Source: Opitutia bacterium (lineage in GTDB: Bacteria; Verrucomicrobiota; Verrucomicrobiia; Opitutales; Opitutaceae). From it: 64,000 bases of DNA. The notes under the pieces are model-generated. The model ran no database searches and was not told the origin of the DNA. It saw only the letters and a program-made list of their open reading frames with translations. Position 1 is the stretch's first letter, and every line of letters starts with the position of its first letter. The position numbers and the translations under genes were made by a program. Positions 40,424 through 59,871 of this stretch are shown piece after piece. The stretch is from NCBI GenBank assembly GCA_947472765.1, contig CANJCM010000010.1:1-64000 (forward strand). Reading direction: 5' to 3'.

Positions 40424-40504
40424 ATGCAACGAGCCGCCGGGCTTGATTTTAAGTTGCCCTTCACGCCCGGCCGTGGCAAGGATCGTACAACAAGAGCTGT
40501 TATG

Positions 40505-40519
40505 TATACAAGTGCATCC
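40505..40519. promoter_or_regulatory. Candidate GntR operator, site 1 (GntR/Gfo-Idh divergent region)
   Basis: TATACAAGTGCATCC, one of three near-identical 15-bp palindromic sites (others at 41307 and 59762). It ends 9 bp before the GntR start codon, suggesting autoregulation, and may also control the leftward operon. It is the weakest of the three copies. Confidence 0.6.
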
Positions 40520-40527
40520 TAATTTCT

Positions 40528-41271
40528 ATGAAGAAAGTCAACTCAGATGTCGCTTACGACTATATCCGCAAAAAAATCATCAGTGGAGAATACGCTCCGG
40601 GGAACCCGCTGATGACGGAGTCGCTTTCGAGTGAGATCAAGGTGAGCCGCACGCCGGTCCGGGAGGCGCTCTACAAGCTGAAAGGGGAGGGGCTCGTCAG
40701 CATCAGCCCTCGCTTAGGCGCCAGTGTTAAGAAAATGGATGTCAAGGAATTCAGGGAGACTTGTGAACTTCGATTGGCATTGGAAGGCCACGCTGCCGGA
40801 CTCGCGGCCGTCAATCATAGCCAGGCTGATTTGCGGGAAATTCGCTTCGCCCTGGAGGCGATGCGGGAGCTCACGGAGAGAATCATCGCCGGGAAGGATG
40901 AAACCAACTTCATCGACGATCTCGTTCGCGAGGATGTGCGTTTCCACGTCGGGATCATGACGGCGGCAAACAACGACCTGATGAAACGGGAGATCCTGCG
41001 GCTCAACATGGTTAACCGGCTTATGATTGGACCTTTAAACATCCGGCAGCCGGCGAAGACCAAGGCTGAAACCGACGAGAATCGTCGCCGGGTGCTGGCC
41101 AGCCACGAAGAAATCTATGAAGCTATTGCCCGGGGCGATGCGGGGGCCGCGCGGGAAGCCATGGAGCAGCATATTCAGGATATCGTGGAGAAGACCCTTC
41201 ATCTCATTTCTGGATCCGGTCGAAGCGAAACCCGCCAGCTCAGTGAAGAAGAGCTGGCGTACAGCGGGTAG
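40528..41271 (+). CDS. GntR-family transcriptional regulator, FCD type
   Basis: 247 residues. The winged helix (residues about 8-72, with MTESLSSEIKVSRTPVREAL as recognition region) belongs to the FadR/GntR subfamily. The FCD ligand domain (about 75-225) contains the D/H metal positions in DLVREDVRFHVGIM and ASHEEIYEAI. FCD regulators bind carboxylic or sugar acids, consistent with an acid-sugar locus. It is divergent from the leftward operon, directly upstream of the TonB receptor, and a matching operator motif lies next to its own start, the receptor and the amidohydrolase genes. Confidence 0.92.
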   Translation: MKKVNSDVAYDYIRKKIISGEYAPGNPLMTESLSSEIKVSRTPVREALYKLKGEGLVSISPRLGASVKKMDVKEFRETCELRLALEGHAAGLAAVNHSQADLREIRFALEAMRELTERIIAGKDETNFIDDLVREDVRFHVGIMTAANNDLMKREILRLNMVNRLMIGPLNIRQPAKTKAETDENRRRVLASHEEIYEAIARGDAGAAREAMEQHIQDIVEKTLHLISGSGRSETRQLSEEELAYSG

Positions 41272-41306
41272 GCCTTCGGGAATTGCGTTGACGAAAAACG
41301 CATTGT

Positions 41307-41321
41307 TATACCAGTGTATGC
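41307..41321. promoter_or_regulatory. Candidate GntR operator, site 2 (TonB receptor)
   Basis: TATACCAGTGTATGC, a 15-bp palindromic site 16 bp before the TonB receptor start. TTGACG (41288-41293) lies upstream as a possible -35 element. The three sites share TATAC and TG-AT at fixed spacing. Confidence 0.7.
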
Positions 41322-41337
41322 AATCTTAGCGTCACCT

Positions 41338-43566
41338 ATGACAAATATCACCAAGCCGTCTGCCGCGTCCCGGCGGATGATGTGTATCATCGCGGCGCTC
41401 GCCGCTTCAGTTGTCGGGTCAGCTCAAACTCCCACCCCACCGGCCGCGACTGGGAAGGATGATGTGGTCCAGCTCAACCCCTTCGTTGTCACTTCGGAAA
41501 ACGACACCGGCTATCGCAGTGAGCGAACCCTCGTCGGCAGCCGCACGGCGAAGAGCCTGCTGGATCTCGCCGGGACGGTCTCGATCATCAATGCGCAGCA
41601 AATCGCCGACCTGAATGCCGTTGAAGTCCACGAAGTGCTTCAATTCGGCGTGGCCGGGGTGACGCAGAACCAGACGATCAACGACGACGTCAACATCCGC
41701 GGTTTCCGCACCACCTTCTCGCTGCGTGACGGCGTCACGAAGACGAGCTTCAAGCGCAACCCGATGTTCGACGTCGAGCGCGTCGAAGTCATCAAGGGCC
41801 CGGGCGCGATGCTCCTCGGCAACAACACGTTTCTGGGTGGCGGCGTGAATTTCGTCACGCGCCAGCCCTCCCACCGCAAGGGCGGGGATGTTAATGTGAC
41901 CTTTGGCGACAACAGCTACGTCCGTCTCGCCGCCAACTCCACGGGTCCGCTGATCGACCAGGGCAGTTTCAAGGTCGATTATCGGGTCACGGTCGGCGGT
42001 CTGATGTCCGACAAGGACAAGGCCATCGAGGAAGAGGATCAGAAGTTCATCGGCGCCGCGGTAACCGCCTACTTCGGGGACAACACCCGGGTGATGCTCA
42101 ACGCCTACCGCCTGCAGGATAACGGCTATTTTTACTGGGAGGACTTCCTCGACTATAACACCACCCTGGGTACGGCGGCCAAGCCGATGGACGCTGCCCT
42201 GAACAGCTATTCGACCAAGGGCTTCTCGCCGGGTCGCAGCAAGGACGCCTACTGGAACAACCGGGACACCTTCGTCAACCTGACCTTCCTGACGAAGCTG
42301 ACGGACAATGCGAACCTCCGGCTCGCCTACTTCTTCACCGATCTGGTCGACCGCCGGCGGATCGTGCGCGGCATTACGATCACCGCGAACAACAAGACGC
42401 TCCTTCGCCAGGACATCCCGCTGGCGATCGACAACTACGCCCACAACGTCCAGGCGGACTTCAATCACAAGCTGCAGACCTCTACGTTCACGCTCGACAG
42501 CACCCTCGGCGCGGACGGAAGCACGCAGTACCAGCGCCAGGACCAGTCGGTGAACACCGCCATTCCGAGCCTGGACACGTCCGCCATCAATCTGGACGCG
42601 GACGAGGCGTATTTCTCCGTGCCGCGCGCGGGCGCCGGGCTGGCCCACACCTCCCAGCAGATCAACCGGCCGCAGAGCCTTTCGACCTACTTCCAGGAGA
42701 ATCTCTCCTTTTTCAAGGACCGGCTGATTCTGATCGGCGGCCTCCGCTGGTTCTATCCGTCGGGCACCGACAAGAACAACCTGACCGGGGTGGTCACCGA
42801 TCGCGTGAGCGACCGGCTGAAGACCCACAAGTACGGTGTCGTCGCCAAGCCGATCCCCGGCGTCTCGCTCTACTACACCGATTCCCAAAACGTGTTCTCG
42901 CAGGTGGGCCGCACGGATCGCTTCTCGGGCAACGACCAACTCGGCGCCCCGTTGAGCAACCAGGAAGGCAAGATGGAGGAATATGGCGTGAAGGTTGACT
43001 ACAAGTTCAACCAGGCCTTCTCCGTCTACGGTTCGCTCGCCCATTACGACATGTCGCTCACCCACGTCCGCACCTTCGGTGTTCTTCCGGAAGGCGTTCC
43101 GGCGGGTTCCATCGGTATCGTTGAATCCGCGGCCGACATGGCGCAGGGCTGGGAATTTGAATACGGCCTGCGCTACGGTACGTCCGATGGCGAACTGAAC
43201 CTCATCGGCACGTTTGCGGATGGAGAGTCGCAGATCGCGGCCGACCCGACGCAGATGGCCGCCGACTTCGTGCCGCGCAAGACGAGCCTCATGGCCCGCT
43301 ACGGCTTCAAGTCCGGCCCGCTGAATGGCTTCCACTTCGGCGCGACGTACTTCGACCAGACGAAGAAGCGTAATGCCAACTTCTGGATCGATTTCCCGGC
43401 CACCTACAACGTCTTCGCCGGCTATCATTGGGGCAAGCACTGGAGCGCGCAGCTCAACCTGAACAACGTCACGGACGAGCGCTACATCGTCGCCATCGCG
43501 GCGAACGGCCTCGTGCAGACGGAGGCGGGTTCGGACATGAAGCTCGCCCTCAAGTACACCTGGTAA
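41338..43566 (+). CDS. TonB-dependent outer-membrane receptor
   Basis: 742 residues from the ATG at 41338. A signal peptide (about 1-28) precedes the TonB-box region VVQLNPFVVTSEND, the plug domain (about 50-170; VSIINAQQIADLNAVE, NIRGFRT, VERVEVIKGPGAMLLG) and a 22-strand barrel ending in the aromatic residue W (LKYTW). The LNPFVVT motif is typical of Opitutaceae receptors. It would import an oligomeric or chelated substrate. It sits directly after the GntR gene with an operator in front and a terminator behind (43619-43650), so it may be expressed more strongly than the genes that follow. There is no SusD partner. Confidence 0.92.
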   Translation: MTNITKPSAASRRMMCIIAALAASVVGSAQTPTPPAATGKDDVVQLNPFVVTSENDTGYRSERTLVGSRTAKSLLDLAGTVSIINAQQIADLNAVEVHEVLQFGVAGVTQNQTINDDVNIRGFRTTFSLRDGVTKTSFKRNPMFDVERVEVIKGPGAMLLGNNTFLGGGVNFVTRQPSHRKGGDVNVTFGDNSYVRLAANSTGPLIDQGSFKVDYRVTVGGLMSDKDKAIEEEDQKFIGAAVTAYFGDNTRVMLNAYRLQDNGYFYWEDFLDYNTTLGTAAKPMDAALNSYSTKGFSPGRSKDAYWNNRDTFVNLTFLTKLTDNANLRLAYFFTDLVDRRRIVRGITITANNKTLLRQDIPLAIDNYAHNVQADFNHKLQTSTFTLDSTLGADGSTQYQRQDQSVNTAIPSLDTSAINLDADEAYFSVPRAGAGLAHTSQQINRPQSLSTYFQENLSFFKDRLILIGGLRWFYPSGTDKNNLTGVVTDRVSDRLKTHKYGVVAKPIPGVSLYYTDSQNVFSQVGRTDRFSGNDQLGAPLSNQEGKMEEYGVKVDYKFNQAFSVYGSLAHYDMSLTHVRTFGVLPEGVPAGSIGIVESAADMAQGWEFEYGLRYGTSDGELNLIGTFADGESQIAADPTQMAADFVPRKTSLMARYGFKSGPLNGFHFGATYFDQTKKRNANFWIDFPATYNVFAGYHWGKHWSAQLNLNNVTDERYIVAIAANGLVQTEAGSDMKLALKYTW

Positions 43567-43618
43567 GCTTAAGGTGAGACCGGCCGGTCATGGTGTGCCG
43601 GCCGGTCCCCCCAATCTC

Positions 43619-43650
43619 GCGCCTTCCGGGCAACCGGCAGGCGCTTTTTT
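43619..43650 (+). terminator. Rho-independent terminator after TonB receptor
   Basis: A hairpin with arms GCGCCTTCCGG and CCGGCAGGCGC, loop GCAA, followed by six T. It lies 53 bp after the receptor stop and 54 bp before the propeller gene. A second hairpin (GACCGGCC/GGCCGGTC) precedes it. Read-through, or a weak promoter beyond it, would allow the downstream run. Confidence 0.85.
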
Positions 43651-43703
43651 CTTCCGGCCACCGACGCGAGGCGTGTTGCCCGCGTCCCAGCGCAGTTACC
43701 GCC

Positions 43704-45275
43704 ATGAAATTCCCCGGGCTCTTCGCTTCCCTCGTCCTGCCGGCCGCGTTGTTCGCCGCCGACGTCCCTCAGCTCGGCACGGATCTCCAGCTGATCGCCG
43801 ACCGCTCGATCGTTGACCACCTCTCGGGCGGGGCCGCGCTGCGGTTGGGTCAGCCCGTGGAACGGGAAGTGATCTTCAAGACCGAGAAACCGTGGGAAGG
43901 CACCGCCTTCTTCATCAGCTCGATCTATCAACACGGCGGCGTGCACCACATGCTGTACCGCGGGATCAACGAGGCCTCGGGCAAAGAGGATGCCGACAAC
44001 GTTTATCTCTGCCTCGCGACCAGCCGGGATGGCATCCACTGGGAGCGGCCGGAGCTGGGCCTCGTCGAATTCCAGGGCTCCAAGGCCAACAACATCACCG
44101 CCGCGACGGGCGGGAAGGCCCAGACCTTCATGTTCACGTTCTACGATCCGCGTCCTGGCACGCCGGAGGACGAGCGGGTCAAGGGCATCGACATGCGCGA
44201 CGGCGAGCGCCGGGCCGGCGGCGCCGGCAAGGGTTTGCGCGCTGCGATTCTCGGCTCCGCCGACGGCCGCGTCTGGCGCGATCTGAATCTGGGAGCCGAC
44301 CTCCAGAGCGACTGGCCGAATGCCTTCGATGGCGGCAGCGTGTCCTGGTCCGAGGTCGAACAGCAATTCGTGGGTTATTTCCGCTGGTGGGACACGGAGG
44401 CGCCGCGCCATCCGCGCACCCTCGACGACTGGATGATCATCCGTCCGGGGATGCGTTCGGTGTTCCGTTCGGTGTCGAAGGATCTCAAGAGCTGGTCGAA
44501 GCCGGAGCCGATGTCCTTCGGCGACACGCCGCGCGAGCAAATCTACGAGGCGCCGACGATCCCGTATTTTCGCAATCCGCGGCTGTATATTTCGCTCGCG
44601 AGTCGTTTCAACCCCGGCCGGCGCGCCCTAACCCTCGAGGAGGAGCGGGCGCTCGCGATCAAGACGTTCCCCGGCAACAAGACCACGCCCACCTACACGT
44701 TCGCGCACGACGCCAACGACCTGGTCCTGCTCGTGACGAAGCCCGGCCTGCTGGCCTACGACCGGCCGTTCATGGAAGCCTTCCTCCGGCCCGGGACGGA
44801 CCTCGGGAACTGGGGCTCGCGTTCCAATTACACCGCGCTCAGCGGCAGCTTCATCCAAACGGGTCCGTCGGAGCTGTCGTTTTTCGTTTCCCGGAATCAT
44901 CTCCAGAAAACGAACTACATTCAGCGCATCTCGCTTCGGCTGGACGGCTTCGTCTCCGTCAACGGTCCCTACGCTGGGGGTGAAATGGTCACGGTTCCGT
45001 TCACCTATACCGGCGATCATCTTGAGGTGAACTTTGCCACCAGTGGGGCCGGCGAGGTTCGCGTTGAAGTGCAGGACGCCGACGGCAAGCCGCTGCCCGG
45101 ACTGGCACTCGAGGATTGCGATCCGCTCATCGGCGATCGCATCGCGGGCAGCGTGCACTGGCGCGGCCAGAGTTCGCTCGCGCGTTATGTCGCGAAGCCG
45201 ATCCGGCTGCGCTTCCAGCTGGTCGATGCCGACCTCTATTCCTTCCGGTTTCCCGGCGCTCCGGCGCAGCGCTGA
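43704..45275 (+). CDS. Secreted beta-propeller glycosidase-like protein 1
   Basis: 523 residues from the ATG at 43704, with a signal peptide (about 1-19). The repeated strand pattern and ATSRDGIHWERPELGLVEFQG and SKANNI blocks place it among beta-propeller proteins like GH32/GH43/GH68 enzymes or GH33-like sialidases. The C-terminal ~130 residues (SLRLDGFVSVNGPYAGGEMV, VRFQLVD-type end) form a jelly-roll module shared with the protein at 48246. Two further relatives lie at 61755 and 63443. No exact family or substrate can be named. First gene of the rightward run, after the terminator. Confidence 0.75.
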   Translation: MKFPGLFASLVLPAALFAADVPQLGTDLQLIADRSIVDHLSGGAALRLGQPVEREVIFKTEKPWEGTAFFISSIYQHGGVHHMLYRGINEASGKEDADNVYLCLATSRDGIHWERPELGLVEFQGSKANNITAATGGKAQTFMFTFYDPRPGTPEDERVKGIDMRDGERRAGGAGKGLRAAILGSADGRVWRDLNLGADLQSDWPNAFDGGSVSWSEVEQQFVGYFRWWDTEAPRHPRTLDDWMIIRPGMRSVFRSVSKDLKSWSKPEPMSFGDTPREQIYEAPTIPYFRNPRLYISLASRFNPGRRALTLEEERALAIKTFPGNKTTPTYTFAHDANDLVLLVTKPGLLAYDRPFMEAFLRPGTDLGNWGSRSNYTALSGSFIQTGPSELSFFVSRNHLQKTNYIQRISLRLDGFVSVNGPYAGGEMVTVPFTYTGDHLEVNFATSGAGEVRVEVQDADGKPLPGLALEDCDPLIGDRIAGSVHWRGQSSLARYVAKPIRLRFQLVDADLYSFRFPGAPAQR

Positions 45276-45287
45276 TTGCTGACTCCG

Positions 45288-46775
45288 ATGTGCGCGTCCC
45301 GGAACAGCCCACGTCGTGACTTTCTGAAGACCGTACTCGCGGCGGGAGCGGCGTGGTCACTCGCCGGCCGGGCTGCGGCGGCGACAGTGCCGACCGGACC
45401 ACCAGGCAGCCTCAACTCGCTTCTGCCGGGCTTCGACCGGCTCAAGCCGGAGGACAAGGTCCGGCGGATTGAACGACTCACCGCGCCGGCGCGGGTGCAT
45501 CCGACGGGCATCATGATTTGCATGCCGTACATCGCCCCCGAGGGATTGCGCGCCGTCCGCTCCTCGGACTTCGAGGGGATGGACCAGTTTACCTTCAATT
45601 TCGGCCATCAGTTCAAGTCGGACACGGACTTCTTCACCAACGAGAACTCGCTCACCGCCTCCGGCTCGCACCTCGCCGCCCAGAGTATCCGCTTCCTCGC
45701 CACGGGAGAGCAGGAGGCGCTCACGGCGGCGCGAGTCGCCTACCGCTCGATCCGAATCGTCTACGAGTTCGGCGTTCAGGCCGGAAATCCGGGATTCCTC
45801 GGCAAACCGTTTCACTTCGAATATTCGGTCCACACGACCGGCGACCAGTACCTGCACTCCCTGTGGGGCCTGTGGACTTTCCTCCCGATCGCCTCACCGG
45901 ACGAGCAGAAGGAGATCCGCGCGATGCTGATCGCGATGGCCGACTACCAAATCAAGGTCGACTACACGATTTTCAACCGGACGGGCGGCGGCTGGAACTA
46001 CCGGCTCGATCCAACCGACTACAACGCGATCATGGCGGCGCTGGTGGCGGCCGCGTATAAGGTATCCGGCGACAAGAAATACCGCGACGCCTACGAGTTC
46101 GTCGTTCGCACCGGCCAGTGGCAGACGAAACGCCGCGTCGACTACATCATCGGCAAAATTCAGGACGGCAGTTACGTCGCCCGGCCCTGGGATAAAATCG
46201 CCGGAGCGAACGTTGAAGCTGGCGAGTTCGCGCACTGGGAGCAGATCCAGCACTGCCAGTTCACCGCCATCTCGGTGGCGATCATTCACGAGTGCGTGCC
46301 GGACTTGTTTCCCGCGGAGGAACTGCGCCGCGTCCTCGCGTTGTGGTGGGCGGACCAGCCGGTCGGATTCGATACCGAGCGCTGGGATTATCTCTACTGG
46401 TTCATCGTCTCGGCGAAGGACCGCTCCTGGCGACCGGTGGAACTCACGCCGCGGCTGCCGCGCGAACAGTGGCTGGGCGGGCATCCGATGCTGTCGTTCG
46501 CCTCGAAGTGGGTCTACGGTGATTGCCTCGCCCGCTTCCAGTGGACTGCGATGGTCGTGGCGCGCCACTGCCCGGAGAAACGCAAGGAGGCGGCGACGTT
46601 TGCCGCCGAAACGCTCCGGCGCCTCCAGCCGCGCCACCTCGTCTGGATCTCGGATCCGGATGGCCGGCAGGTGCCGCCGGAAGTGAATTATTTCACCCGC
46701 TTTCTCAGCAGCGAGGTGCCCGAAAGCATGATCGCGTCCTACTGGGAGGGACGCCGGCTCAAGCTGTGGGCCTGA
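45288..46775 (+). CDS. Tat-exported protein, probable (alpha/alpha) barrel
   Basis: 495 residues from the ATG at 45288 (a TTG in frame at 45276 is an alternative). A twin-arginine signal is present (NSPRRDFLKTVLAAGAAWSL, about residues 6-25). The body is helix-rich with Trp/Tyr-His clusters (FHFEYSVHTTGDQYLHSLWG, FNRTGGGWNYRLDPTDYN), reminiscent of (alpha/alpha)6 polysaccharide lyases or unsaturated glycosidases, but I cannot assign a family. It follows propeller 1 after 12 bp and precedes another helical protein by 14 bp, so these three are cotranslated. It is presumably a periplasmic glycan-processing enzyme. Confidence 0.6.
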   Translation: MCASRNSPRRDFLKTVLAAGAAWSLAGRAAAATVPTGPPGSLNSLLPGFDRLKPEDKVRRIERLTAPARVHPTGIMICMPYIAPEGLRAVRSSDFEGMDQFTFNFGHQFKSDTDFFTNENSLTASGSHLAAQSIRFLATGEQEALTAARVAYRSIRIVYEFGVQAGNPGFLGKPFHFEYSVHTTGDQYLHSLWGLWTFLPIASPDEQKEIRAMLIAMADYQIKVDYTIFNRTGGGWNYRLDPTDYNAIMAALVAAAYKVSGDKKYRDAYEFVVRTGQWQTKRRVDYIIGKIQDGSYVARPWDKIAGANVEAGEFAHWEQIQHCQFTAISVAIIHECVPDLFPAEELRRVLALWWADQPVGFDTERWDYLYWFIVSAKDRSWRPVELTPRLPREQWLGGHPMLSFASKWVYGDCLARFQWTAMVVARHCPEKRKEAATFAAETLRRLQPRHLVWISDPDGRQVPPEVNYFTRFLSSEVPESMIASYWEGRRLKLWA

Positions 46776-46789
46776 GCATCACTACCGTC

Positions 46790-48190
46790 ATGAACATTGG
46801 CTTCCGAACTTTTGCCTTGGTGATGCTGGCGTTGGTCTCCGTCCAAGCGGCCGAGCGCGAGCGCCCGCTGGGTCAGCTCAAAACGAGTCAGCCGCTCGCG
46901 GATCGGATCACGACACTCGACCGTTTCGTGCACGAACATTACTATGACGCTTCGGGGCTGATGTACTCGCACTGGAACTGGCGGGAGGAGCGGCCGTTTG
47001 CGGCCGGCGATTTCGGCCCGGGGGATTCCACGATGCCCGGCCCGGAGCCGCATCAGTGGATGAGCTATGAGAACAGCCCGTTCATCGCGGGCCTCTTTCT
47101 CGCGGCGCAGTCCTACCGCTATCAGGCGACGAAGGATCCGGAGGCCCTGGCCTATGCCCGGCGCGCCTACGAAGCCGTGGACAAGGACTACCGCCTCAAC
47201 GAAGCGAGCCCGGCCGATTCCGGTCCGGTGCAGAAGGCGGGCATCGTCGAAGTTGCGACCCGGGGCGCCGGGCCCACGGGAGGCTTTTTTTGCAAGCCCT
47301 ACTACGGCGAGGCGACGGATCACACCAGCACCGAGCAGCATTTTGGTCCGCTGTTCGGGCTGTATCATTACTGGAAGATCGCGCCGCCGGAAACGCGGGA
47401 ACGGATTCGCGAAATCTTCAGTGCCGTTTCGCGACGCTGGCGCGCGGGCTACCGCATCAATTACTTTGGCGAGACCTGGAATCTCGAGGAATCCTACCCG
47501 CGCGCGCAACGGCACATGTTCGTCTGGGCGGTGATGCAGCGTCTGGCGTACGAGATTACCCGCGAGCCAGCGTGTCTCGAGGAGTTCCGCCGGCTCGATG
47601 CCCTCTATGGAGGCATGCCGACGCCCCGCGAAACCGCGCTGGGTCTGGGCCGGCCCAGCTACATCAGCACCGAAGACCGGCAGTTCCACGTGCAGATTGT
47701 CATGGGCGCCGAACTGCTGGCGGAACTCGAGCCCGCCTCCCGGGACCGCTATCTCCGCGGGATGCGGGCCTGGTGGCAGTACTCGTCGATTGGCCAGCGC
47801 GACGATCTGGCCGCCTATTACTTCATCAAGATCGATAGTCTGACCGGCGCCTGGGAGAAACTTCCGGCCTCGATCAAGCCGCGCTCGCAGTGGCGTTCGT
47901 CCTACATGTTTCAGAACGTGACGCTCCCCGTCTGCTGGGAGGGAATTCGCGAGCGGCAGGCCTTCACCGGCGCGATCGTCAGTCGCCATTTTCCGGAGGA
48001 AGCGGTGGCCGCCCGCGAGCGGGTGGACCGGATTTTTGCCGGGCTCGCGAAGGACCATTTGAAGTGGTTCTCCGATCCCGAGGGCGTCGTGCCACCGCCG
48101 TTGCAATGGACGCTCAATGTCCTGCAAGGCGACGCGCTCGCGTTCTACTCGCTGGGCTACTGGTACGCCCGCGCCAATCACCTCCGCTGA
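46790..48190 (+). CDS. Secreted helix-rich protein, possible (alpha/alpha) barrel enzyme
   Basis: 466 residues from the ATG at 46790; the frame runs upstream into the previous gene, so this start, with its signal peptide (about 1-20), is preferred. The body is helical with aromatic stretches YDASGLMYSHWNWREERPF, HQWMSYENSPFIAGLFLAA, FCKPYYGEATDHTSTEQHFG and AQRHMFVWAVMQRLA. This layout resembles six-hairpin glycosidases; no family name can be given from sequence alone. It is not an obvious paralogue of the preceding Tat protein. Predicted periplasmic and part of the same run. Confidence 0.6.
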   Translation: MNIGFRTFALVMLALVSVQAAERERPLGQLKTSQPLADRITTLDRFVHEHYYDASGLMYSHWNWREERPFAAGDFGPGDSTMPGPEPHQWMSYENSPFIAGLFLAAQSYRYQATKDPEALAYARRAYEAVDKDYRLNEASPADSGPVQKAGIVEVATRGAGPTGGFFCKPYYGEATDHTSTEQHFGPLFGLYHYWKIAPPETRERIREIFSAVSRRWRAGYRINYFGETWNLEESYPRAQRHMFVWAVMQRLAYEITREPACLEEFRRLDALYGGMPTPRETALGLGRPSYISTEDRQFHVQIVMGAELLAELEPASRDRYLRGMRAWWQYSSIGQRDDLAAYYFIKIDSLTGAWEKLPASIKPRSQWRSSYMFQNVTLPVCWEGIRERQAFTGAIVSRHFPEEAVAARERVDRIFAGLAKDHLKWFSDPEGVVPPPLQWTLNVLQGDALAFYSLGYWYARANHLR

Positions 48191-48245
48191 TCCACGCGCC
48201 CCAAAACCACCACGCTCTCCCGCCCGAATTCTCCCCCGCCCTCCC

Positions 48246-49766
48246 ATGAACATCCGCCACCTTACGCTTCTCTCCCTTGGAATTCTCACGGCCATGGCCG
48301 CCACCGCGGCCGAACCGCTCAAGATCGGCAACCGGCTCGAGCCGTTCGTCGATCGCTTCCTGATCGACCGCCTGGCGGGCGCGACCCACCAGCTGCATCA
48401 TCCGCACTACGAGGGCATCGCCGTGCCCTTCAACGATCCCTGGGATCGCGACGCCTCGGGCTACGCCACGATCCTCCACGACAACGGCCTTTACCGGCTT
48501 TATTATCGCGGCGGGCCACGCGACGCGAGCGCCGGTCAGTCCGAGGGCTCGACGTCCTACTTCTGCTACGCCGAGAGCCGCGACGGCCTCACCTGGGTGA
48601 AGCCGAAGCTCGGGCTGGTGGAGTTTGAAGGTTCCAAGGCGAACAACATTCTCCTCGCGCCGTCGCCGCGCGAGGATCCGTGGACGCAGAGCATCAGCCC
48701 GTTCATCGATACCCGCCCGGGCGTGCCGGCCGAGGAGCGCTACAAGGCGATCGGCGGGCAGTGGCCGCAGGGCTTGTATGTGCTCGTGTCGCCGGACGGC
48801 TTGAAGTGGAAGAAGTGGCGTGACGAAGCCGTGTTCAAGGACGGCGCTTTCGATTCGTTGAACGTCGGTTTCTGGTCGGAGCTCGAGCAGTGCTACGTGC
48901 TCTATTTCCGCGTCTTCACCAGCTGGACGGACTACAAGAGCAAGGCCTTCAACCTCGATGGGTTTCGCAGTATCTCCCGCACGACTTCGACGGACCTCAT
49001 CCACTGGACGCCCGCGCAACGGATGAGTTTTGGCAACACCCCGCTCGAGGAACTCTACACCAATCACACGCGGCCGTATTTCCGGGCCCCGCACATCGCC
49101 CTCGCGACCCCGATGCGTCTGATTCACAACCGCCGGTTCCTTACCGATGCGGAGATGGACGAACAGAAGATCGGCAAGGGCTTTCGCGGGATCTCCGGCC
49201 ACAATCACAGCATCCCGAACGAGGTCGCCGACACCGTCTTCATGACCACACGCGGAGGTGCGGTTTATGACCGCACGTTCCTCGAGTCCTTCGTCCGGCC
49301 GGGCCTCGACAAGGGCAACTGGGTTTCGCGCAACGGCGTTCCCGCGACAGGCCTGATTCAGACCGGGCCCAACGAGATGTCGATTTACGTGGGCCAGAAT
49401 TACGTGCAGCCCACGGCCCACCTCGGCCGCTACTCGATGCGGCTGGATGGCTTCGCTTCCGTTTCCGCCGGCTACGCAGGCGGAGAGATGCTGACCAAGC
49501 CCATCGTCATCGAAGGCGCGCGGCTGCTGCTCAACTACTCGACCTCCGCCGCCGGTGGTCTGCGCGTGGAAATTCAGACGCCCGAGGGCCAGGCCATCCC
49601 GGGCTACACCCTCGAGGAGTGTCCCCCCATGGTCGGTGACTCCGTGGAGCGCGCGGTCAACTGGGTCACGACCTCCGATCTCACCCCGCTGCGGGGCCGG
49701 GCCGTGCGCCTCCGGTTTGTGCTCAAGGACGCCGATGTCTTTGCGCTCCGCGTGGCCGCACAATGA
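48246..49766 (+). CDS. Secreted beta-propeller glycosidase-like protein 2
   Basis: 506 residues from the ATG at 48246, with a signal peptide (about 1-22). Closest in the window to protein 1 (43704): matching RDGLTWVKPKLGLVEFEG/SKANNI block, SMRLDGFASVSAGYAGGEM and the Pro/Gly-rich RVEIQTPEGQAIPGYTLEEC end. A mid-protein insertion (FRGISGHNHSIPNE, about residue 310) differs from protein 1. It overlaps the following Kelch gene by 4 bp (ATGA). Function is as for protein 1. Confidence 0.75.
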   Translation: MNIRHLTLLSLGILTAMAATAAEPLKIGNRLEPFVDRFLIDRLAGATHQLHHPHYEGIAVPFNDPWDRDASGYATILHDNGLYRLYYRGGPRDASAGQSEGSTSYFCYAESRDGLTWVKPKLGLVEFEGSKANNILLAPSPREDPWTQSISPFIDTRPGVPAEERYKAIGGQWPQGLYVLVSPDGLKWKKWRDEAVFKDGAFDSLNVGFWSELEQCYVLYFRVFTSWTDYKSKAFNLDGFRSISRTTSTDLIHWTPAQRMSFGNTPLEELYTNHTRPYFRAPHIALATPMRLIHNRRFLTDAEMDEQKIGKGFRGISGHNHSIPNEVADTVFMTTRGGAVYDRTFLESFVRPGLDKGNWVSRNGVPATGLIQTGPNEMSIYVGQNYVQPTAHLGRYSMRLDGFASVSAGYAGGEMLTKPIVIEGARLLLNYSTSAAGGLRVEIQTPEGQAIPGYTLEECPPMVGDSVERAVNWVTTSDLTPLRGRAVRLRFVLKDADVFALRVAAQ

Positions 49767-50845: not shown

Positions 50846-50867
50846 ACGCGCCCGAACATTCCGCCGC

Positions 50868-52076
50868 ATGAAAATCACCAAGGTTACCACGCATCTCCTG
50901 ACCACGCGCTGGACGGACGATCCGTATTTCCCCAACGCCCTTCACTCCACCGCGATCTTCCGGCTCGAGACCGATGCCGGCGTCGACGGCCTGGGCGAAT
51001 CGACTTGGGGCTACTTCGCCCCGGACGCCGTGCCGGCGATGGTCGATTATTTCCGCCCCGTCCTGCTCGGCCGCGATCCGATGGATCTAACCGCGATTAC
51101 GCGTGCGCTGACGGATGACTCCGTCTGGTGGGCGCGCTCCGGGGCCGGCAAGAGTGTCATCAGTGGACTGGAGCTCGCGCTCTGGGATCTCAAGGGCAAG
51201 GCCCTCGGCGTGCCGGTCTATCAGTTGCTCGGCGGGAAGGTCCGCGAGTCGGTCCCGGTCTACGCTTCGGGGGGGCCGTCACTCTGGCCGATGGATCAGA
51301 CGGTCCGAAAAATCGAACACTACGCGAAGCTCGGTTATCGCGCCGTGAAGCTTTCGACGGGGCTCTACGAATTGCCGCCGCCTTCCCAACTCGGGCACCA
51401 GGTGCGGATGAAGCAGGTGCCCTGTGCGCACTCGCGCAAGCTCGAGCGGCTCACCGAACTGTTTACGCTGTTGCGGCGTGAATTCGGCCACGACATCGAT
51501 CTCGCGATCGATGGTCACCAGGGCGGCGTGCCAAACCCGATCCCGGTCAGCGAGGCCGTGGCCATCGCCGAAACGCTGGCTCCGTACCGGCTGCGGTTCT
51601 ACGAGGAGCCGCTGGCTTACACGAATCTGGATGGCTATGTGGAATTGCGATCGCGCTCGGCGATCCCGATCGCCGGCGGTGAAAGCCTCTGCGGCCTGGA
51701 TCAGTTCCACTCCCTGATCGCCCGTGGGGGCGTGAACATGATTCAGCCCGACCTCGGCTTTGTCGGCGGCCTGCAGGAAACCACGCGGGTCATGCACCAC
51801 GCGGAGGCGTCGAATCTCTCCACGGCCATTCACACCGGCGCCTCGATGGGTCCGTCGCTCGCCGCCTCCTGGCATCTTGCGGCAGCGTCTCACTCGGTCG
51901 ACTGGCTCGAGCACGTCCAGGCTGCCACCACCATCCAGCGGGCGATCATGATCGATCCGTTCACGGTCAAGGATGGCGCGGTCGGACTGCCGACTTCACC
52001 GGGACTGGGCGTGCGACTGACGCCGGAAATCATCGAACAATTCCGTTTCGTTCCCCGCTCGGGTGAACGCACCTGA
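50868..52076 (+). CDS. Enolase-superfamily sugar-acid dehydratase 1
   Basis: 402 residues from the ATG at 50868. Mandelate-racemase-like: metal ligands in LAIDGHQGGV, FYEEPLAY and IAGGESLCGL, a Lys in YRAVKLSTGLY and a His in STAIHTGASMG. This pattern (D-x-H with a second His) is typical of acid-sugar dehydratases such as mannonate, gluconate or galactarate dehydratases. It shares the opening MKITKVTTHLLTT with the enzyme at 53094 (MKITDVRTTLLTG), so the two are a tandem duplicate. It is followed after 3 bp by a 2-hydroxyacid dehydrogenase, forming module 1. Confidence 0.85.
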   Translation: MKITKVTTHLLTTRWTDDPYFPNALHSTAIFRLETDAGVDGLGESTWGYFAPDAVPAMVDYFRPVLLGRDPMDLTAITRALTDDSVWWARSGAGKSVISGLELALWDLKGKALGVPVYQLLGGKVRESVPVYASGGPSLWPMDQTVRKIEHYAKLGYRAVKLSTGLYELPPPSQLGHQVRMKQVPCAHSRKLERLTELFTLLRREFGHDIDLAIDGHQGGVPNPIPVSEAVAIAETLAPYRLRFYEEPLAYTNLDGYVELRSRSAIPIAGGESLCGLDQFHSLIARGGVNMIQPDLGFVGGLQETTRVMHHAEASNLSTAIHTGASMGPSLAASWHLAAASHSVDWLEHVQAATTIQRAIMIDPFTVKDGAVGLPTSPGLGVRLTPEIIEQFRFVPRSGERT

Positions 52077-52079
52077 CCC

Positions 52080-53081: not shown

Positions 53082-53093
53082 TCCAGCTTCGCC

Positions 53094-54308: not shown

Positions 54309-54309
54309 T

Positions 54310-55323
54310 ATGAAGCTCATCGTCGATGTCGCCCCCCAGCCCGACGTGCTCGCGAAGTTGCGCGAGCAAACTGATCTGGAACTGATCACGCTCGACCCGC
54401 CGGCGCTGGCGGTGCGCGCGGTGGACGCGTCCCAGCTCGGCGACGCCGAGGCGCTCTTCTGCACGTTTCCGCCGGCGAACCTGGCCGACCTGCGCGCGCT
54501 GCGCTGGATCCAGATCGCCTCGACCGGCTACACGCAGCTCTTCGGCTTGCAGCTCGTCGAGCGGGGAATCCGCGCGACGAATGCGCGCGGCTGCTTCGAC
54601 GTGCCGATCGCCGAGTGGAATCTCGCGATGATGGTCAACCTGCTGCGCGACCTGCGGCTGATGATTCGCAACCAGGACAGCGCGGTCTGGGATCGATCGG
54701 CGCGGTTCCAGCGTGAGTTGCGCGGATTGACCGTCGGACTGTGGGGTTATGGCGGCATTGGCCGCGAGACGGCGCGACTGGCGCGGCAATTCGGTCTGAA
54801 GGTCCACGTGCTCACGCGCAACGGGAAGACCGGGCCGCGCGGTGAAGTCTACGCCGTGCCGGGCACGGGCGACGCCGACGGCACGCTGGCGGATCGCGTG
54901 TTTGGCGCGGGTCAGGAGCAGGAGTTTCTCGGCGGCCTCGACTTCCTGATTCTCGCGCTGCCTCTCACCAAGGCGACCGAGGGCCTCATCGGGGAGCGGG
55001 AACTCCAGGCTCTGCCGCGTCATGCGTTCGTGCTGAACCCGGCCCGCGGGCCGATCATCAAGGAAAAGGCCCTGCTGCGCGCCCTCGACGAAGGGTGGAT
55101 CGCCGGCGCGGCGCTGGACACGCACTACCACTATCCCATGCCACCGGAGCATCCGCTCTGGAAATATCCGCAGGTGATCTTCACGCCGCATATTTCCGGC
55201 TCGAGCCTCAGCCCGCGCTTCAACGACCGGTTGTGGGACATCTTCCAGTTGAACGTCGGCCGCTTCCGCCGCGGCGAGCCGCTGCTCAATGAGCTCACGG
55301 CCTTCCAGCTCAGCGGCAACTGA
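54310..55323 (+). CDS. D-2-hydroxyacid dehydrogenase 2, catalytic Glu not conserved
   Basis: 337 residues. The NAD-binding fold has LWGYGGIGRETARL and the Arg site NPARGPII; His is in TPHISGS. The usual E-P motif before the His is replaced by H-Y-P (THYHYPMPPEHPLW), so the catalytic Glu of the family triad is Tyr. Formate dehydrogenases show a Gln there, so activity on a special substrate is possible, or the enzyme may be weak or non-classical. The PGTGDADGTLADRVFGAGQ insertion is shared with copy 1. It is the second gene of module 2. Confidence 0.85.
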   Translation: MKLIVDVAPQPDVLAKLREQTDLELITLDPPALAVRAVDASQLGDAEALFCTFPPANLADLRALRWIQIASTGYTQLFGLQLVERGIRATNARGCFDVPIAEWNLAMMVNLLRDLRLMIRNQDSAVWDRSARFQRELRGLTVGLWGYGGIGRETARLARQFGLKVHVLTRNGKTGPRGEVYAVPGTGDADGTLADRVFGAGQEQEFLGGLDFLILALPLTKATEGLIGERELQALPRHAFVLNPARGPIIKEKALLRALDEGWIAGAALDTHYHYPMPPEHPLWKYPQVIFTPHISGSSLSPRFNDRLWDIFQLNVGRFRRGEPLLNELTAFQLSGN

Positions 55324-55337
55324 AACGGCCGCTCCGC

Positions 55338-58277
55338 ATGAAGTCTTCCGTCCTGGGTTTTGCGCTGCTGCTTTCCGTCCTCGGTCCGCTCGCCGGCACG
55401 GCTCCGGCCAGTGACACCGGTGCGATCGTGCACCGCGGGTTCGAGGCCTTCCGGCGCGGCACGCTCGGCGACGCCGGTGCGAATACCTACGTTTCGGCCA
55501 GGGGTAATATTGAGACCATCCACCGGTGGGACCTGAACCGCGACGGGGAGATCGACCTGATCTTCACGCAGGACCACAACGCCGACTATGCGCCCGACGC
55601 GATGATCTACTGGGGCGGGGCGGATGGTCCGACTTCGCTCCAGCCCGAGCTGCCGGAACACCGGTCGCCCTACACGCTGTTGAAACACGCCGAGCAGGCG
55701 CTGAAGCAGGTCACGTGGCTGCCGAGTCTCGGGGGAGGCCGTTGCCAGGTCGCGGACCTGAATAACGACGGCTACCTCGATATCATTTCGGGCAACATGA
55801 TGCACAATTTCCGGCAGGACATGCCGGCGTATGTCTACTGGGGCAGCGCCCAGGGATTCCGCGAGAGCGAGCGGACGATCCTGCCAGCCTACATCGCGAG
55901 CGGCATCGCGGTCGGCGATCTCAACGAGGACGGCCTGCCGGAGGTGGTGCTGGCCAACCAGGGTTTCGAGCGGGGCTTCGATCTTCGCTTCGGGCCGATG
56001 CTCAACCACCTCGAGTCCTTTGTCTACTGGGGCCACCCGGCCGGGTTCGACGTCACGCGCCGGAGTTCGCTTCCAACGATCGCGGCCACCGACGTCGCTA
56101 TCGGTGACTTCAACGGCGACCGGCACCTCGACGTCGCCTTCGTGAACAACCTGCACGAGGAACAGAGTGCCTACATCTATTGGGGCGACGGCAGCGGGAA
56201 GTTTTCCGAGGCCGCGCGGCAGGTCGTGAAGTTCGCGGCGGACGACAAGGGCCGGGTGGTGATGAACACCGCGCTGGCTTCCGACGTGAACAAGGATGGG
56301 GTGACCGACCTCGTCGTCTCCGGCAATCGCCACGCCCTGCTCTTTCTCGGGTCGAAGAGCGGTCTTGGCGCCGCCCCCGTCGCCGACCTGCCGGCGGAAA
56401 ACAGCCACGCCCTCGAGGCAGCGGACCTGAACCGCGACGGCTGGCCCGACCTCGTCGTCGCCAACGCGGGCGCCGAGCCGGCGCGGCCGAAGTCGACAAT
56501 CTATTGGGGTGGCGAAAAGGGTTTCAGCGCCGACCGGACCACACCGCTTTCCACGCTGGGGGCGATGGCGGTCAAGACCGGCGACCTGAACCGCGACGGC
56601 TTTCCGGATCTGGTGTTCGGCAACATGAGCACGAGTCAGGGTGTGCCCACCCAGATTTTCTGGGGCAGCGCCGGTGGTTATTCAGACCTTCGCCGCCGCG
56701 AGCTGCAGGCCTTCGGCGCCATCGGCGTGGGCGTGGCCGATTTCAATCGCGACGGAAACCAGGACCTTGTGTTGCTCAACCATCTTTCCAGCAGTGGCGA
56801 GACGAGCCTGCCCACCTCAATTTACTGGGGAAACAAGGAGCACGCTTACTCGGACGCCGCCGTGACCCACCTGCAGCCCGGTGGCTACATGATGTACACG
56901 GTCGCCGATTTTGATGACGACGGTTATCCCGATCTCGTGCTCGTTCATCAGGGGCATGCGTCGGTCTGGTGGGGCGGCGCGGCTGGCTACCAGGCGGACA
57001 ACCGGACGGAGCTGCCGATCACGGCGTTGCCCGGCGGCGAAAGCGTTTTCGGATTAAATGTCGCCGACCTCAATGGCGACGGGCACCTGGATCTGGTTTG
57101 CACCGGCTGGAGAGGGGCGAACACCCAGGTGAAAGGCCCGCACGCGATCATCGCGTACGGCGGCACCGACCGTTTCAAGACCGCCCGCACCGAAGCCTTC
57201 CAGCTGCCGGGCGGCCCGGGCACGGTCGGAGCGACGGCGCTCGCGATCGCCGACCTGAACCGGGACGGCTATCTGGACATGATTTTTCCCCTGCAGGATT
57301 TCGGTGAATCAGAGATCCGGTGGGGCGGGCCCCAGGGTTATGCGGCCGCCCGGGTCACGAGCCTCGCGACCAATGGCGCCAGCCAGGCGACGGTGGCGGA
57401 TCTGGATCATGACGGCCGGCTCGACGTCGTCTTCACCAGCGGGCTCATGGGCAAAAGAAAACCCGGCCAGCCCGTGGTGGGCGGCACGGGCGTGAAAGGG
57501 ACGACGCGCAACAGCGAGGCCACCATTTATTGGGGTAACGCCGCCTGGGACGGGAGCGAGAGCAGCACCCTCGAGTGCTACAACGGGCTGGACGTGACCG
57601 TGGCGGACCTGAATCGCGATGGCCACCTCGACCTCGCGTTCTCGAGCTACATGTCGGACACCACGCGCGAACTCCCCGCGATTATCTACTGGGGCGACGG
57701 CAAGCGGGGCTACCGCGAGAAGCACCGCACGTTCATCGAGGCCGCGTCTTCCTCCGGTATGGATGCCCTGGATCTCAACCGCGACGGCTGGCTCGATCTC
57801 ATCGTCACCAATCACCAGAAGAACTTCAGCCACGTCAGCGGCACGAACATTTACTGGGGCGGGGAGCAGGGGTACTCGATCGCGCGCCGCACGCTCCTGC
57901 CGTCGATCGGTTCCCACCTCGATGCGATGGTGGATGCGGGCAACATCTACGACCGCAAGTATGAGTGGGATTATGTCTCGGCCCCGGTCGAGGCGATCCA
58001 GGGGCTGGCCTTTGATCGGCTCACCTGGAAGGCGGCGACCGAGTTCGGCACCGGCGTCAAGTTCCAGGTCCGCAGTGCCGCGTCCCAGGCGGAGCTCGCT
58101 CGCGCCGCGTGGTCCGGACCGGAGGGCGCCGGTTCCCATTATACCGTATCCGGAAGCAGGCTGGCCGGCGTGAAACCCGAGAATGCCTGGCTGCAATATC
58201 GTGCCGTCCTCACATCGCCCGACGGCGCGAACTCCGCGCTCTTGACCGAAGTCGAGATCGGGTGCGCCAGCCGCTAG
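55338..58277 (+). CDS. Large secreted FG-GAP/VCBS-repeat protein
   Basis: 979 residues with a signal peptide (about 1-25). It has about ten VCBS/FG-GAP units of the form D-L-N-x-D-G-x-x-D-L-x-x (e.g. DLNRDGEIDLIF, DLNNDGYLDIISG, DLNEDGLPEVVL), which bind Ca2+ and build an integrin-like beta-propeller, interleaved with YWG(G/D/S) strands. A C-terminal beta domain (about 870-979) follows. Such proteins bind or degrade surface glycans (some are lyases). It is the last gene of the rightward run; its TAG stop is inside the CTAGAGC end of a repeat element. Confidence 0.82.
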   Translation: MKSSVLGFALLLSVLGPLAGTAPASDTGAIVHRGFEAFRRGTLGDAGANTYVSARGNIETIHRWDLNRDGEIDLIFTQDHNADYAPDAMIYWGGADGPTSLQPELPEHRSPYTLLKHAEQALKQVTWLPSLGGGRCQVADLNNDGYLDIISGNMMHNFRQDMPAYVYWGSAQGFRESERTILPAYIASGIAVGDLNEDGLPEVVLANQGFERGFDLRFGPMLNHLESFVYWGHPAGFDVTRRSSLPTIAATDVAIGDFNGDRHLDVAFVNNLHEEQSAYIYWGDGSGKFSEAARQVVKFAADDKGRVVMNTALASDVNKDGVTDLVVSGNRHALLFLGSKSGLGAAPVADLPAENSHALEAADLNRDGWPDLVVANAGAEPARPKSTIYWGGEKGFSADRTTPLSTLGAMAVKTGDLNRDGFPDLVFGNMSTSQGVPTQIFWGSAGGYSDLRRRELQAFGAIGVGVADFNRDGNQDLVLLNHLSSSGETSLPTSIYWGNKEHAYSDAAVTHLQPGGYMMYTVADFDDDGYPDLVLVHQGHASVWWGGAAGYQADNRTELPITALPGGESVFGLNVADLNGDGHLDLVCTGWRGANTQVKGPHAIIAYGGTDRFKTARTEAFQLPGGPGTVGATALAIADLNRDGYLDMIFPLQDFGESEIRWGGPQGYAAARVTSLATNGASQATVADLDHDGRLDVVFTSGLMGKRKPGQPVVGGTGVKGTTRNSEATIYWGNAAWDGSESSTLECYNGLDVTVADLNRDGHLDLAFSSYMSDTTRELPAIIYWGDGKRGYREKHRTFIEAASSSGMDALDLNRDGWLDLIVTNHQKNFSHVSGTNIYWGGEQGYSIARRTLLPSIGSHLDAMVDAGNIYDRKYEWDYVSAPVEAIQGLAFDRLTWKAATEFGTGVKFQVRSAASQAELARAAWSGPEGAGSHYTVSGSRLAGVKPENAWLQYRAVLTSPDGANSALLTEVEIGCASR

Positions 58278-58303
58278 AGCATCTTGGGAAAAATCGTAGC
58301 CGG
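58274..58303. repeat. 30-bp CTAGAGCA...GTAGCCGG repeat end
   Basis: Matches the terminal repeat of the 24886-25030 element at 20 of 30 positions, including both tips (CTAGAGCA and GTAGCCGG). Its CTAG provides the TAG stop of the FG-GAP gene. No second end is clear, so this is probably a partial copy. Confidence 0.5.
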
Positions 58304-58322
58304 AAACGAAGCAGAGGGAGCA

Positions 58323-58540
58323 ACCACTGACGGATTTCGCCAACGGCGAAATCTCATTCCAGTGCCTCCGCCTAATCGGCTCCGGCCTAGAGCGTCGTCG
58401 GCTGCTTATCACCGCCGAAGTCCTGACGTTGAAGAGGGCCACTCCGATCCAGCCCGCTGTTAGCGGGCCCCTCTCTAAAGCGAAGGCGATTAGCCGAAGC
58501 CGCCATTCAGATTTCGCCGTTGGCGAAATCCGTTAGTGGT
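58323..58540. repeat. 218-bp element with 32-bp terminal inverted repeats
   Basis: The left arm begins ACCACTGACGGATTTCGCC, the right arm is the complement of ACCACTAACGGATTTCGCC; 31 of 32 terminal bases match. The arms themselves fold on GATTTCGCCAACGGCGAAATC-like hairpins (GATTTCGCC/GGCGAAATC). An internal CCCGCTGTTAGCGGG hairpin lies near 58454-58468. It is non-coding and non-autonomous, and fills the gap between the FG-GAP gene and the leftward amidohydrolase. Confidence 0.7.
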
Positions 58541-58571
58541 CGATCGGCCGGCTCTAACTGCGGCTGACGGT

Positions 58572-59732
58572 TCACGCGCTCGCAGCCGGCAATCGAAGCA
58601 GGCGGGCGGCGTTTCCGCCCATCAGCGCGGCGCGGTCGGTGGCGGTCAGAAACGGATCGCAGTAGCGCTCGATGTAGTCGCGCGACTGGCGGTACGTGCA
58701 GAAACGATTCTGGAACGGCATGTCCGAGCCCCAGAGCAGCCGGTCAGGTCCGACGTGCTTCAGCATCGCTTCGATCACGGGCCAGCAGGCGCGATAGGGG
58801 TAGTCGAGAATGTCGCCGAGCCGGTAGGGGAAGCCGACCTCGAGACAGGTGTTCGTGTGGGCCAGCGGCGCCCACATGTCCTTGGGCAGCGTGAAGCTGC
58901 GCCCCGACAGGAATTCGCGCCACGGGTAGCCGTGGGTGATGCTCGTGACGAGGGTGGGGTGTTGGTCCAGCAGCTTCCGGAGCTCCCATAGCTCGTCGAT
59001 GAATCCCTGGCGCGGGTCGGTCGATCCTGGCCGCGCCCCGAGCGTGAAGAAGATCGGCACCTGCAGTCCCGCGACCGCTTTCCAGAAGGGCTGCCAGGCG
59101 GGCTCGTTGAAACTCTGCGTCCGCCCGTGCTGGTAGGCGTACGCCGGAATGATTTTCAGCCCATGCAGGTGATGCGTCTGGATGGCGTCCACGGCCTGTT
59201 GGATCGCGCGGTCGGGTTCGCTCGGAATCAACCACTCGTCGATCGGCGCCATCGCCCGCAGCCGGTTCGGGAACGCGGCCACACATTGCGCAAGATAAGC
59301 GGTGTCACGCGTCAAGGTGGCGTCGGCATGAATCAGCCCCCAGTCGACTCCGGCATAGTCCATCTCGGCGATCATCGCGCCGGGCGGGAATTCGATCACA
59401 TGGGGCGGGAGCTGCTGTTTCGTATAGTCCTCGCCATCCACCGTCCAGACCAGGCGCCGGCAGGTTCGGTCGACGCGGAAATTCACGTCACGGACCAGGC
59501 GCATCGGGTCGTCCGGACCGGGATTGAGCAGCCGGTGCGCGTCGCCCGGTGCCCGATCACGCACCCGAAACGCCGGTTGGTGATGCACCGCGTACTGGCG
59601 CTGCCACCAGTCCAAGTGCTCCTGTCCCGAGTCATGCCCGGCCGGCGTGTCGGGGGCCGTGAAGCAATAGACATGACTGTCGACGACGCACGGCGCGCCG
59701 GAAGCAGGAGGGCGGGGTTCAGGAGCTGGCAT
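58572..59732 (-). CDS. Amidohydrolase-2-family protein with altered first metal motif
   Basis: 386 residues from the ATG at 59732; the longer upstream frame crosses the operator and is not used. The family is recognised by GLKIIPAYAYQHG, SITHGYPWREFLSG and LLWGSDMPFQNRF near the end, a TIM-barrel layout. The first motif reads VVDSHVYCF: the expected H-x-H is H-x-Y, so one of two N-terminal metal ligands is missing. Relatives include sugar lactonases, decarboxylases and pyrone-type lactonases. It is divergent from the next amidohydrolase, sharing the 15-bp operator. Confidence 0.8.
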   Translation of the reverse strand: MPAPEPRPPASGAPCVVDSHVYCFTAPDTPAGHDSGQEHLDWWQRQYAVHHQPAFRVRDRAPGDAHRLLNPGPDDPMRLVRDVNFRVDRTCRRLVWTVDGEDYTKQQLPPHVIEFPPGAMIAEMDYAGVDWGLIHADATLTRDTAYLAQCVAAFPNRLRAMAPIDEWLIPSEPDRAIQQAVDAIQTHHLHGLKIIPAYAYQHGRTQSFNEPAWQPFWKAVAGLQVPIFFTLGARPGSTDPRQGFIDELWELRKLLDQHPTLVTSITHGYPWREFLSGRSFTLPKDMWAPLAHTNTCLEVGFPYRLGDILDYPYRACWPVIEAMLKHVGPDRLLWGSDMPFQNRFCTYRQSRDYIERYCDPFLTATDRAALMGGNAARLLRLPAASA

Positions 59733-59761
59733 GCCGATGCGAGGCTTGACAGAAAAAAATA

Positions 59762-59776
59762 TATACAACTGTATGC
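59762..59776. promoter_or_regulatory. Candidate GntR operator, site 3 (amidohydrolase pair)
   Basis: TATACAACTGTATGC, the best palindrome of the three sites. On the - strand it falls in the 16-bp spacer between TTTACG (complement 59780-59785) and TATATT (complement 59758-59763), a plausible -35/-10 pair for the 59732 gene. TTGACA (59746-59751) could serve the rightward gene. Confidence 0.72.
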
Positions 59777-59871
59777 GAGCGTAAACAAAAAGCGCTTCCT
59801 CCTTTCCCCGAAGAGGAACCGTCAGGGAGAATCCAGCCTCGCCCCCCGGCGCAGGCGAGTTGGCCAAACGC

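Follow-up and report, generated by a model that had tools for sequence, protein, structure and literature searches.

A candidate operator connecting a GntR/FCD regulator with sugar-acid genes in Opitutaceae

GguR, UxuR, ExuR, LldR and other GntR regulators of the FCD type control local, autoregulated regulons for carboxylated substrates. NanR, the sialic acid regulator of E. coli, reads GGTATA direct repeats and not TGTATACA, the box described below. Atu1419 of Agrobacterium fabrum, a member of the VanR group of the FCD subfamily of GntR, binds ATGTATACAT at sites located on the -10 element or between -10 and -35, including the upstream region of its own gene (PMC7797058). It is a local repressor whose targets are hydroxycinnamate genes and whose proposed effector is methylenetetrahydrofolate, with a tetramer and DNA looping (PMC7797058).

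We analyzed a window of 64,000 nucleotides, which is the whole stretch of DNA studied here and encodes a regulator of this type.

gntR, 40528..41271, + strand: GntR winged helix-turn-helix and FCD regulator of 247 aa with a VanR-like six-helix effector domain

Pfam assigned the N-terminal winged helix-turn-helix of GntR (PF00392, E=1.5e-16) and the C-terminal FCD domain (PF07729, E=3.6e-20), both above the cut-off. Residues D136, H140, H193 and H215 and the RTPVR sequence were invariant in 18 orthologs, and the four residues are placed like FCD metal ligands in a predicted metal site. The predicted model (pLDDT 84.8) contained six effector-domain helices (72-96, 99-121, 126-147, 150-166, 179-201 and 205-229). 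As six rather than seven such helices are the mark of the VanR group of FCD (PMC7797058), the protein was assigned to this group. The fold search was topped by VanR members, the best solved match being the Atu1419-DNA complex (6za3, TM 0.68-0.71). The recognition helix, SRTPVREAL, was identical to that of Atu1419; this helix is common in GntR proteins and is therefore no specific proof. Among the NCBIfam models, NanR was the second best match, with 55.2 bits versus a cut-off of 260.

A sequence-only reading of the window had reported three nearly identical 15-mers in control regions, two of them adjoining gntR. We located these at 40505-40519, 41307-41321 and 59762-59776, all on the + strand, and the window contained no extra copy with up to two mismatches (0.10 expected from shuffles), in agreement with the earlier statement that no other intergenic one was seen. 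With sensible choices of gene start, all three were intergenic. Site 1 falls between the starts of gfoA (40423, minus strand) and gntR (40528), site 2 between the gntR stop at 41271 and the ATG of a TonB receptor at 41338, and site 3 between divergent amidohydrolases (starts 59732, minus strand, and 59872, plus strand). Two of the sites thus adjoin gntR, as had been claimed. An alternative GTG start of the receptor at 41314 would fall within site 2.

The whole host genome (4.97 Mb) was scanned by pattern, and a PWM was applied to the fetched loci. The core TATACNNNNGYAT matched eight times in the genome, and the reversed-pattern control gave no match. The three window sites were the only strong intergenic copies in the genome. 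Among the five copies outside the window, three lay within genes, with one PWM score of 20 and the others low; the two without a called gene over them scored low as well (8.3 and 12.2). When the pattern was relaxed to two mismatches, 129 matches were obtained versus 149 for the reversed control, showing no excess, and these degenerate matches were excluded from use. Within a GMC oxidoreductase gene (G000:C1:46026-46040; L001, L183), 16 bp identical to operator 1 were observed in frame. This coding copy is probably due to chance, although by a rough estimate only ~0.001 copies would be expected in the host genome. A dispersed repeat was ruled out by the one or two exact matches per genome.

Comparison of the sites yielded the following elements.

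Operator 1, 40503..40520, + strand: TGTATACAAGTGCATCCT, with the primary box TGTATACA at 40503-40510 and the half-site GCAT at 40514-40517; between gfoA and gntR
Operator 2, 41305..41322, + strand: GTTATACCAGTGTATGCA, mirrored, with the half-site followed by the box TGTATGCA; 15 bp before the ATG of the TonB receptor
Operator 3, 59760..59787, + strand: TATATACAACTGTATGCGAGCGTAAACA, a triple array with boxes every 10 bp; between the divergent amidohydrolases
TTGACA, 59748..59753, + strand: likely -35 box for the amidohydrolase-aldolase unit on the right, kept in L174 and L179

The 15-mer had been described as a palindrome. It is partly palindromic, with the dyad core ATAC-N4-GYAT, and as a whole it consists of a primary TGTATACA/TGTATGCA box and a half-site at exactly 10 bp. 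An overlapping further box at 59770-59787, overlooked earlier, makes site 3 a triple array. Site 3 had also been placed between plausible -35 and -10 boxes; the conserved TTGACA at 59748 does precede it, whereas a consensus -10 at standard spacing could not be fixed. Among 131 occurrences of TGTATAC, a GYAT half-site or its mirror image was present at exactly 10 bp in 30-37, and the same half-site at nearly all other offsets occurred 0-3 times; this count contains the motif-defining gntR sites and is descriptive rather than an independent test. The TGTATACA box was symmetric in its conservation and the outer part of the half-site was asymmetric. Positions G2, A4, T5 and C7 of TGTATACA, and likewise T15, were invariant across 29 gntR-upstream sites. 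Because the half-site is fixed at 10 bp, the box is symmetric and the outer half-site is asymmetric, we read the putative operator as one primary dimer site plus an accessory half-site on the same helix face, rather than one 15-bp palindrome.

The motif was sought both genome-wide, with the three strong intergenic copies given above, and in orthologous loci. Orthologs of gntR with 48-73% identity were present in 45 further genomes (252 genomes of the Opitutaceae-like family searched), and up to 20 kb was fetched around 40 ortholog loci. TGTATACANNNGTATNC was matched at 10 or more of 13 positions in 29 of the 42 gntR-upstream regions (shuffled mean 0.3, maximum 3). The element in these 29 regions, carried as TGTATACANNNGYAT, starts 24-28 bp before the gntR start codon. 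The other 13 regions fell below the motif threshold, some with a weaker box and some with none. The recognition helix was nearly invariant throughout and unchanged in the orthologs without a box. Many gntR promoters showed, by eye, TTGnCA or TTGCAA upstream and a weak TAT ~16 bp further on; from this spacing, the box would occupy the -35/-10 spacer of the gntR promoter and the half-site its -10 region.

In L143, L144 and L176, gntR orthologs without the operator stand beside a transporter gene and have the common stretch TTTTTTGCAAAGCTTGGGCNTACGGTCCG directly before the start codon. Tandem gntR paralogs were observed in L179 (13514-15490) and L174 (9548-10294), with the operator at one copy and TGTGTTTTCTGTGTGC upstream of the other. 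A division of autoregulation between these paralogs is possible.

The units that face the three sites contain the following genes.

gfoA, 39419..40423, - strand: Gfo/Idh/MocA oxidoreductase, at the head of the leftward operon
gfoB, 38455..39426, - strand: Gfo/Idh/MocA oxidoreductase, leftward operon
Aldolase gene, 37631..38452, - strand: HpcH/HpaI-type 2-keto-3-deoxy acid aldolase, leftward operon
SDR gene, 36749..37537, - strand: SDR dehydrogenase, leftward operon
TonB receptor gene, 41338..43566, + strand: TonB-dependent receptor, preceded by operator 2
Dehydratase gene, 50868..52076, + strand: sugar-acid dehydratase of the enolase superfamily, in a downstream set of four genes that alternate between dehydratase and 2-hydroxyacid dehydrogenase
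Leftward amidohydrolase gene, 58572..59732, - strand: protein of the amidohydrolase 2 family, on the leftward side of operator 3 and less certainly under its control
Rightward amidohydrolase gene, 59872..60705, + strand: protein of the amidohydrolase 2 family, target of operator 3 on the rightward side
Aldolase gene, 60745..61719, + strand: DHDPS/N-acetylneuraminate-lyase-type aldolase, rightward amidohydrolase-aldolase unit

The order gfoA-gfoB-HpcH aldolase-SDR, divergent from gntR and with the site in between, was kept in most loci. The first codons of gntR (MKKVN, 40528-40541) read TTGACTTTCTTCAT on the other strand, and TTGAC(A/T) was kept there in nearly all orthologs. The -35 box of the leftward operon may therefore lie within the beginning of the gntR coding sequence.

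A mirrored element was found before the gntR-adjoining receptor genes in L147, L164, L165, L167, L170, L171 and L173. In clear cases, the receptor sites lay 15-44 bp before the start, with TTGAC(A/T/G) upstream. The site persisted in L147 and L171, although the receptor there is only about 25% identical. Control from operator 2 would extend to the downstream dehydratase / 2-hydroxyacid dehydrogenase genes by read-through.

The triple array, (N)ATAC-N4-GTATRC-N4-GTAAACA, precedes the amidohydrolase-aldolase unit in the window and in G245, G246, G011, G096 and G242. Its leftward partner varies, being an amidohydrolase in L174, another gene in L179 and yet another in G041. We therefore assign the array primarily to the rightward unit. 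The sequence-only reading had placed the leftward operon and the amidohydrolase-aldolase unit under the same control, and the comparison supports this with the refinement that the conserved partner of site 3 is the rightward unit. In regulator-positive genomes, 14 of 24 amidohydrolase orthologs had a nearby site. The missing sites are partly explained by the fact that several orthologs are second copies or appear operon-internal.

We compared the distribution of the motif with that of the regulator in the 252 genomes. TGTATACANNNGYAT was present in 29 of 46 regulator-positive genomes versus 8 of 206 others (p=4e-19, relatedness uncorrected), a figure that is partly circular as gntR promoters are counted. 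With the gntR-promoter hits removed by a list drawn by hand, the numbers were 15/46 versus 8/206 (p=1.7e-7, relatedness uncorrected). The reversed-pattern control gave six matches in the 252 genomes, all in regulator-free ones. The eight TGTATACANNNGYAT matches in regulator-free genomes, four of them within called genes, are close to the six of this control. The motif is thus not equally frequent at random positions, which would have spoken against the earlier proposal; regulator-free genomes stand at background. Among regulator-positive genomes, 21 of 24 had the site at the gfoA ortholog, compared with none of six regulator-free genomes; in most regulator-positive genomes gfoA and gntR share one upstream region. 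The site was also retained at unlinked gfoA genes, located 13 kb from gntR in G149 and, in G249, at a large distance from it on the same contig. In G041, the amidohydrolase-aldolase unit with its site is on a different contig from gntR.

Phylogenetic footprinting, gene-content correlation and the operator of a solved relative all favor the proposal that the neighboring GntR protein is the reader of the motif. We consider it very probable that the GntR/FCD protein encoded at 40528-41271 uses the motif as its operator, acting as a repressor of four units that a carboxylated intermediate would release. Sequence comparison shows the identity and positions of the sites, their targets, their link to this regulator and the match in operator type. 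We infer direct binding and repression. The regulator would recognize the TGTATACA-type box through its SRTPVREAL helix, with cooperative help from the GYAT half-site at a distance of exactly one helical turn. In the ligand-free state, it would sit on the promoter region just downstream of -35 and keep four units low: gntR itself, the leftward operon Gfo-Gfo-aldolase-SDR(-GH156-like-transporter), the amidohydrolase-aldolase unit, and the TonB receptor together with the sugar-acid genes that follow it. Release would occur when a carboxylated intermediate binds the FCD domain at its metal site. The control most likely takes the form of an autoregulating repressor that covers the promoter downstream of -35; as the -10 elements could not be fixed, we infer occlusion as the means of repression.

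The regulator might read the sites and activate, or act both ways, at some targets, for example at the leftward operon, where site 1 is ~80 bp from gfoA and downstream of TTGACT inside the gntR coding start. We regard this as unlikely, as the closest match in structure, Atu1419, acts as a repressor and the sites lie over the core promoter region. The sites could instead be operators of another factor, global or unlinked, that also controls gntR, since sites in front of regulator genes can serve a regulator higher in the hierarchy. However, gntR-free genomes were at motif background, orthologous targets included, the regulator gene repeatedly found next to the targets is gntR, and the box matches the solved operator of Atu1419, the best structural relative. 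Such a factor is therefore improbable.

The location of the motif downstream of TTGACA-like -35 boxes and near start codons would also suit a mere promoter element (-10 or extended -10) common to these genes. Such an element should recur genome-wide, but the motif occurs ~1-2 times per genome, mainly with the regulator. Moreover, its best-conserved part, TGTATACA, is a perfect dyad in the -35/-10 spacer of gntR, and its orientation and -35 distance vary among the target types. A promoter-only reading was ruled out by this rarity and the tie to the regulator, and the promoter element is highly improbable. A chance likeness of AT-rich intergenic hexamers deserves next to no credence: the motif is short and one 16-bp identical copy lies within an unrelated coding gene, but conservation at orthologous positions contradicts chance, and shuffles and reversed controls gave far lower numbers.

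The carboxylated intermediate was considered from the cluster enzymes. The genes include a neuraminate-lyase-type aldolase, an HpcH-type aldolase, enolase-type acid-sugar dehydratases, 2-hydroxyacid dehydrogenases, and a kelch protein related to neuraminate epimerase. No cluster enzyme scanned reached an NCBIfam equivalog cut-off. Two further entries are relevant here.

GH156-like gene, 34358..36079, - strand: GH156 exosialidase-like protein (E=9e-34), on the same strand as the leftward operon
Gene at 43704..45275, + strand: protein without a Pfam family, in which a short stretch resembles GH130-type propeller enzymes

The GH156-like gene gave no Pfam family at usual thresholds. Equivalents of the catalytic His134 and the carboxylate-binding Arg129 and Arg202 of EnvSia156 were conserved in its product. 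The catalytic base of EnvSia156, Asp14, lies outside the local alignment; the invariant Asp16 in NGDCNFxFY of the GH156-like protein is its likely equivalent. Both HpcH-type and neuraminate-lyase-type aldolases act on 2-keto-3-deoxy acids. Because of the GH156-like gene and the two pyruvate-type aldolases, we tentatively suggest that the pathway and inducer may be a carboxylated 2-keto-3-deoxy sugar of the ulosonic acid type.

Pfam gave no meaningful match for the proteins encoded at 43704, 45276, 46766, 48246 and 61860. These five proteins have ~470-525 aa and are encoded within 43704-49766 and 61860-63401, both on the + strand. Those at 45276 and 46766 are distantly related to each other; those at 43704, 48246 and 61860 form a second group with the short stretch like GH130-type propellers. 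A family profile of the 45276 protein found no solved relative, and its structure model was poor (pLDDT 57). A more speculative and rather doubtful extension is a family-wide regulon for a nonulosonic acid (sialic-acid-, KDN- or Kdo-like), in which the VanR-type GntR would occupy tandem boxes spaced by one helical turn, two or three in each operator, as side-by-side dimers or a tetramer, with several enzyme families that have no described member.

In the literature searched, we found neither this regulon nor an Opitutaceae regulon of the FCD-GntR type with this operator. The regulon is new, the type of control is already well known, and the operator has a modest structural twist. The cluster, which is found in many genera of one Verrucomicrobia family and includes several enzymes without a Pfam family, now has a probable regulator, together with an operator sequence and a list of targets. 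The substrate becomes testable, as the ligand that releases the regulator would lead to the pathway.

Among known systems, PmiR of Pseudomonas aeruginosa (7xp0/7xp1), TM0439 and McbR belong to the same FCD group by sequence and fold. NanR (6on4) is likewise an FCD regulator and sits with NanA/NanM-like genes; however, 6on4 was a weak structural match, and the score was far below the NanR cut-off. The regulator of this locus and Atu1419 are about 25% identical, and there is no sign of the proposed Atu1419 effector, methylenetetrahydrofolate, at this locus. Nevertheless, both have the FCD fold with six effector-domain helices and the SRTPVREAL helix, and both operators have the core GTATAC; ATGTATACAA of site 1 agrees with ATGTATACAT at 9 of 10 positions. 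The Atu1419 operator is a single 10-bp palindrome, whereas the operator here is a box and a half-site at 10 bp, extended to a triple array at site 3. This arrangement, with the half-site at exactly 10 bp, can be compared with the solved Atu1419-DNA complex.
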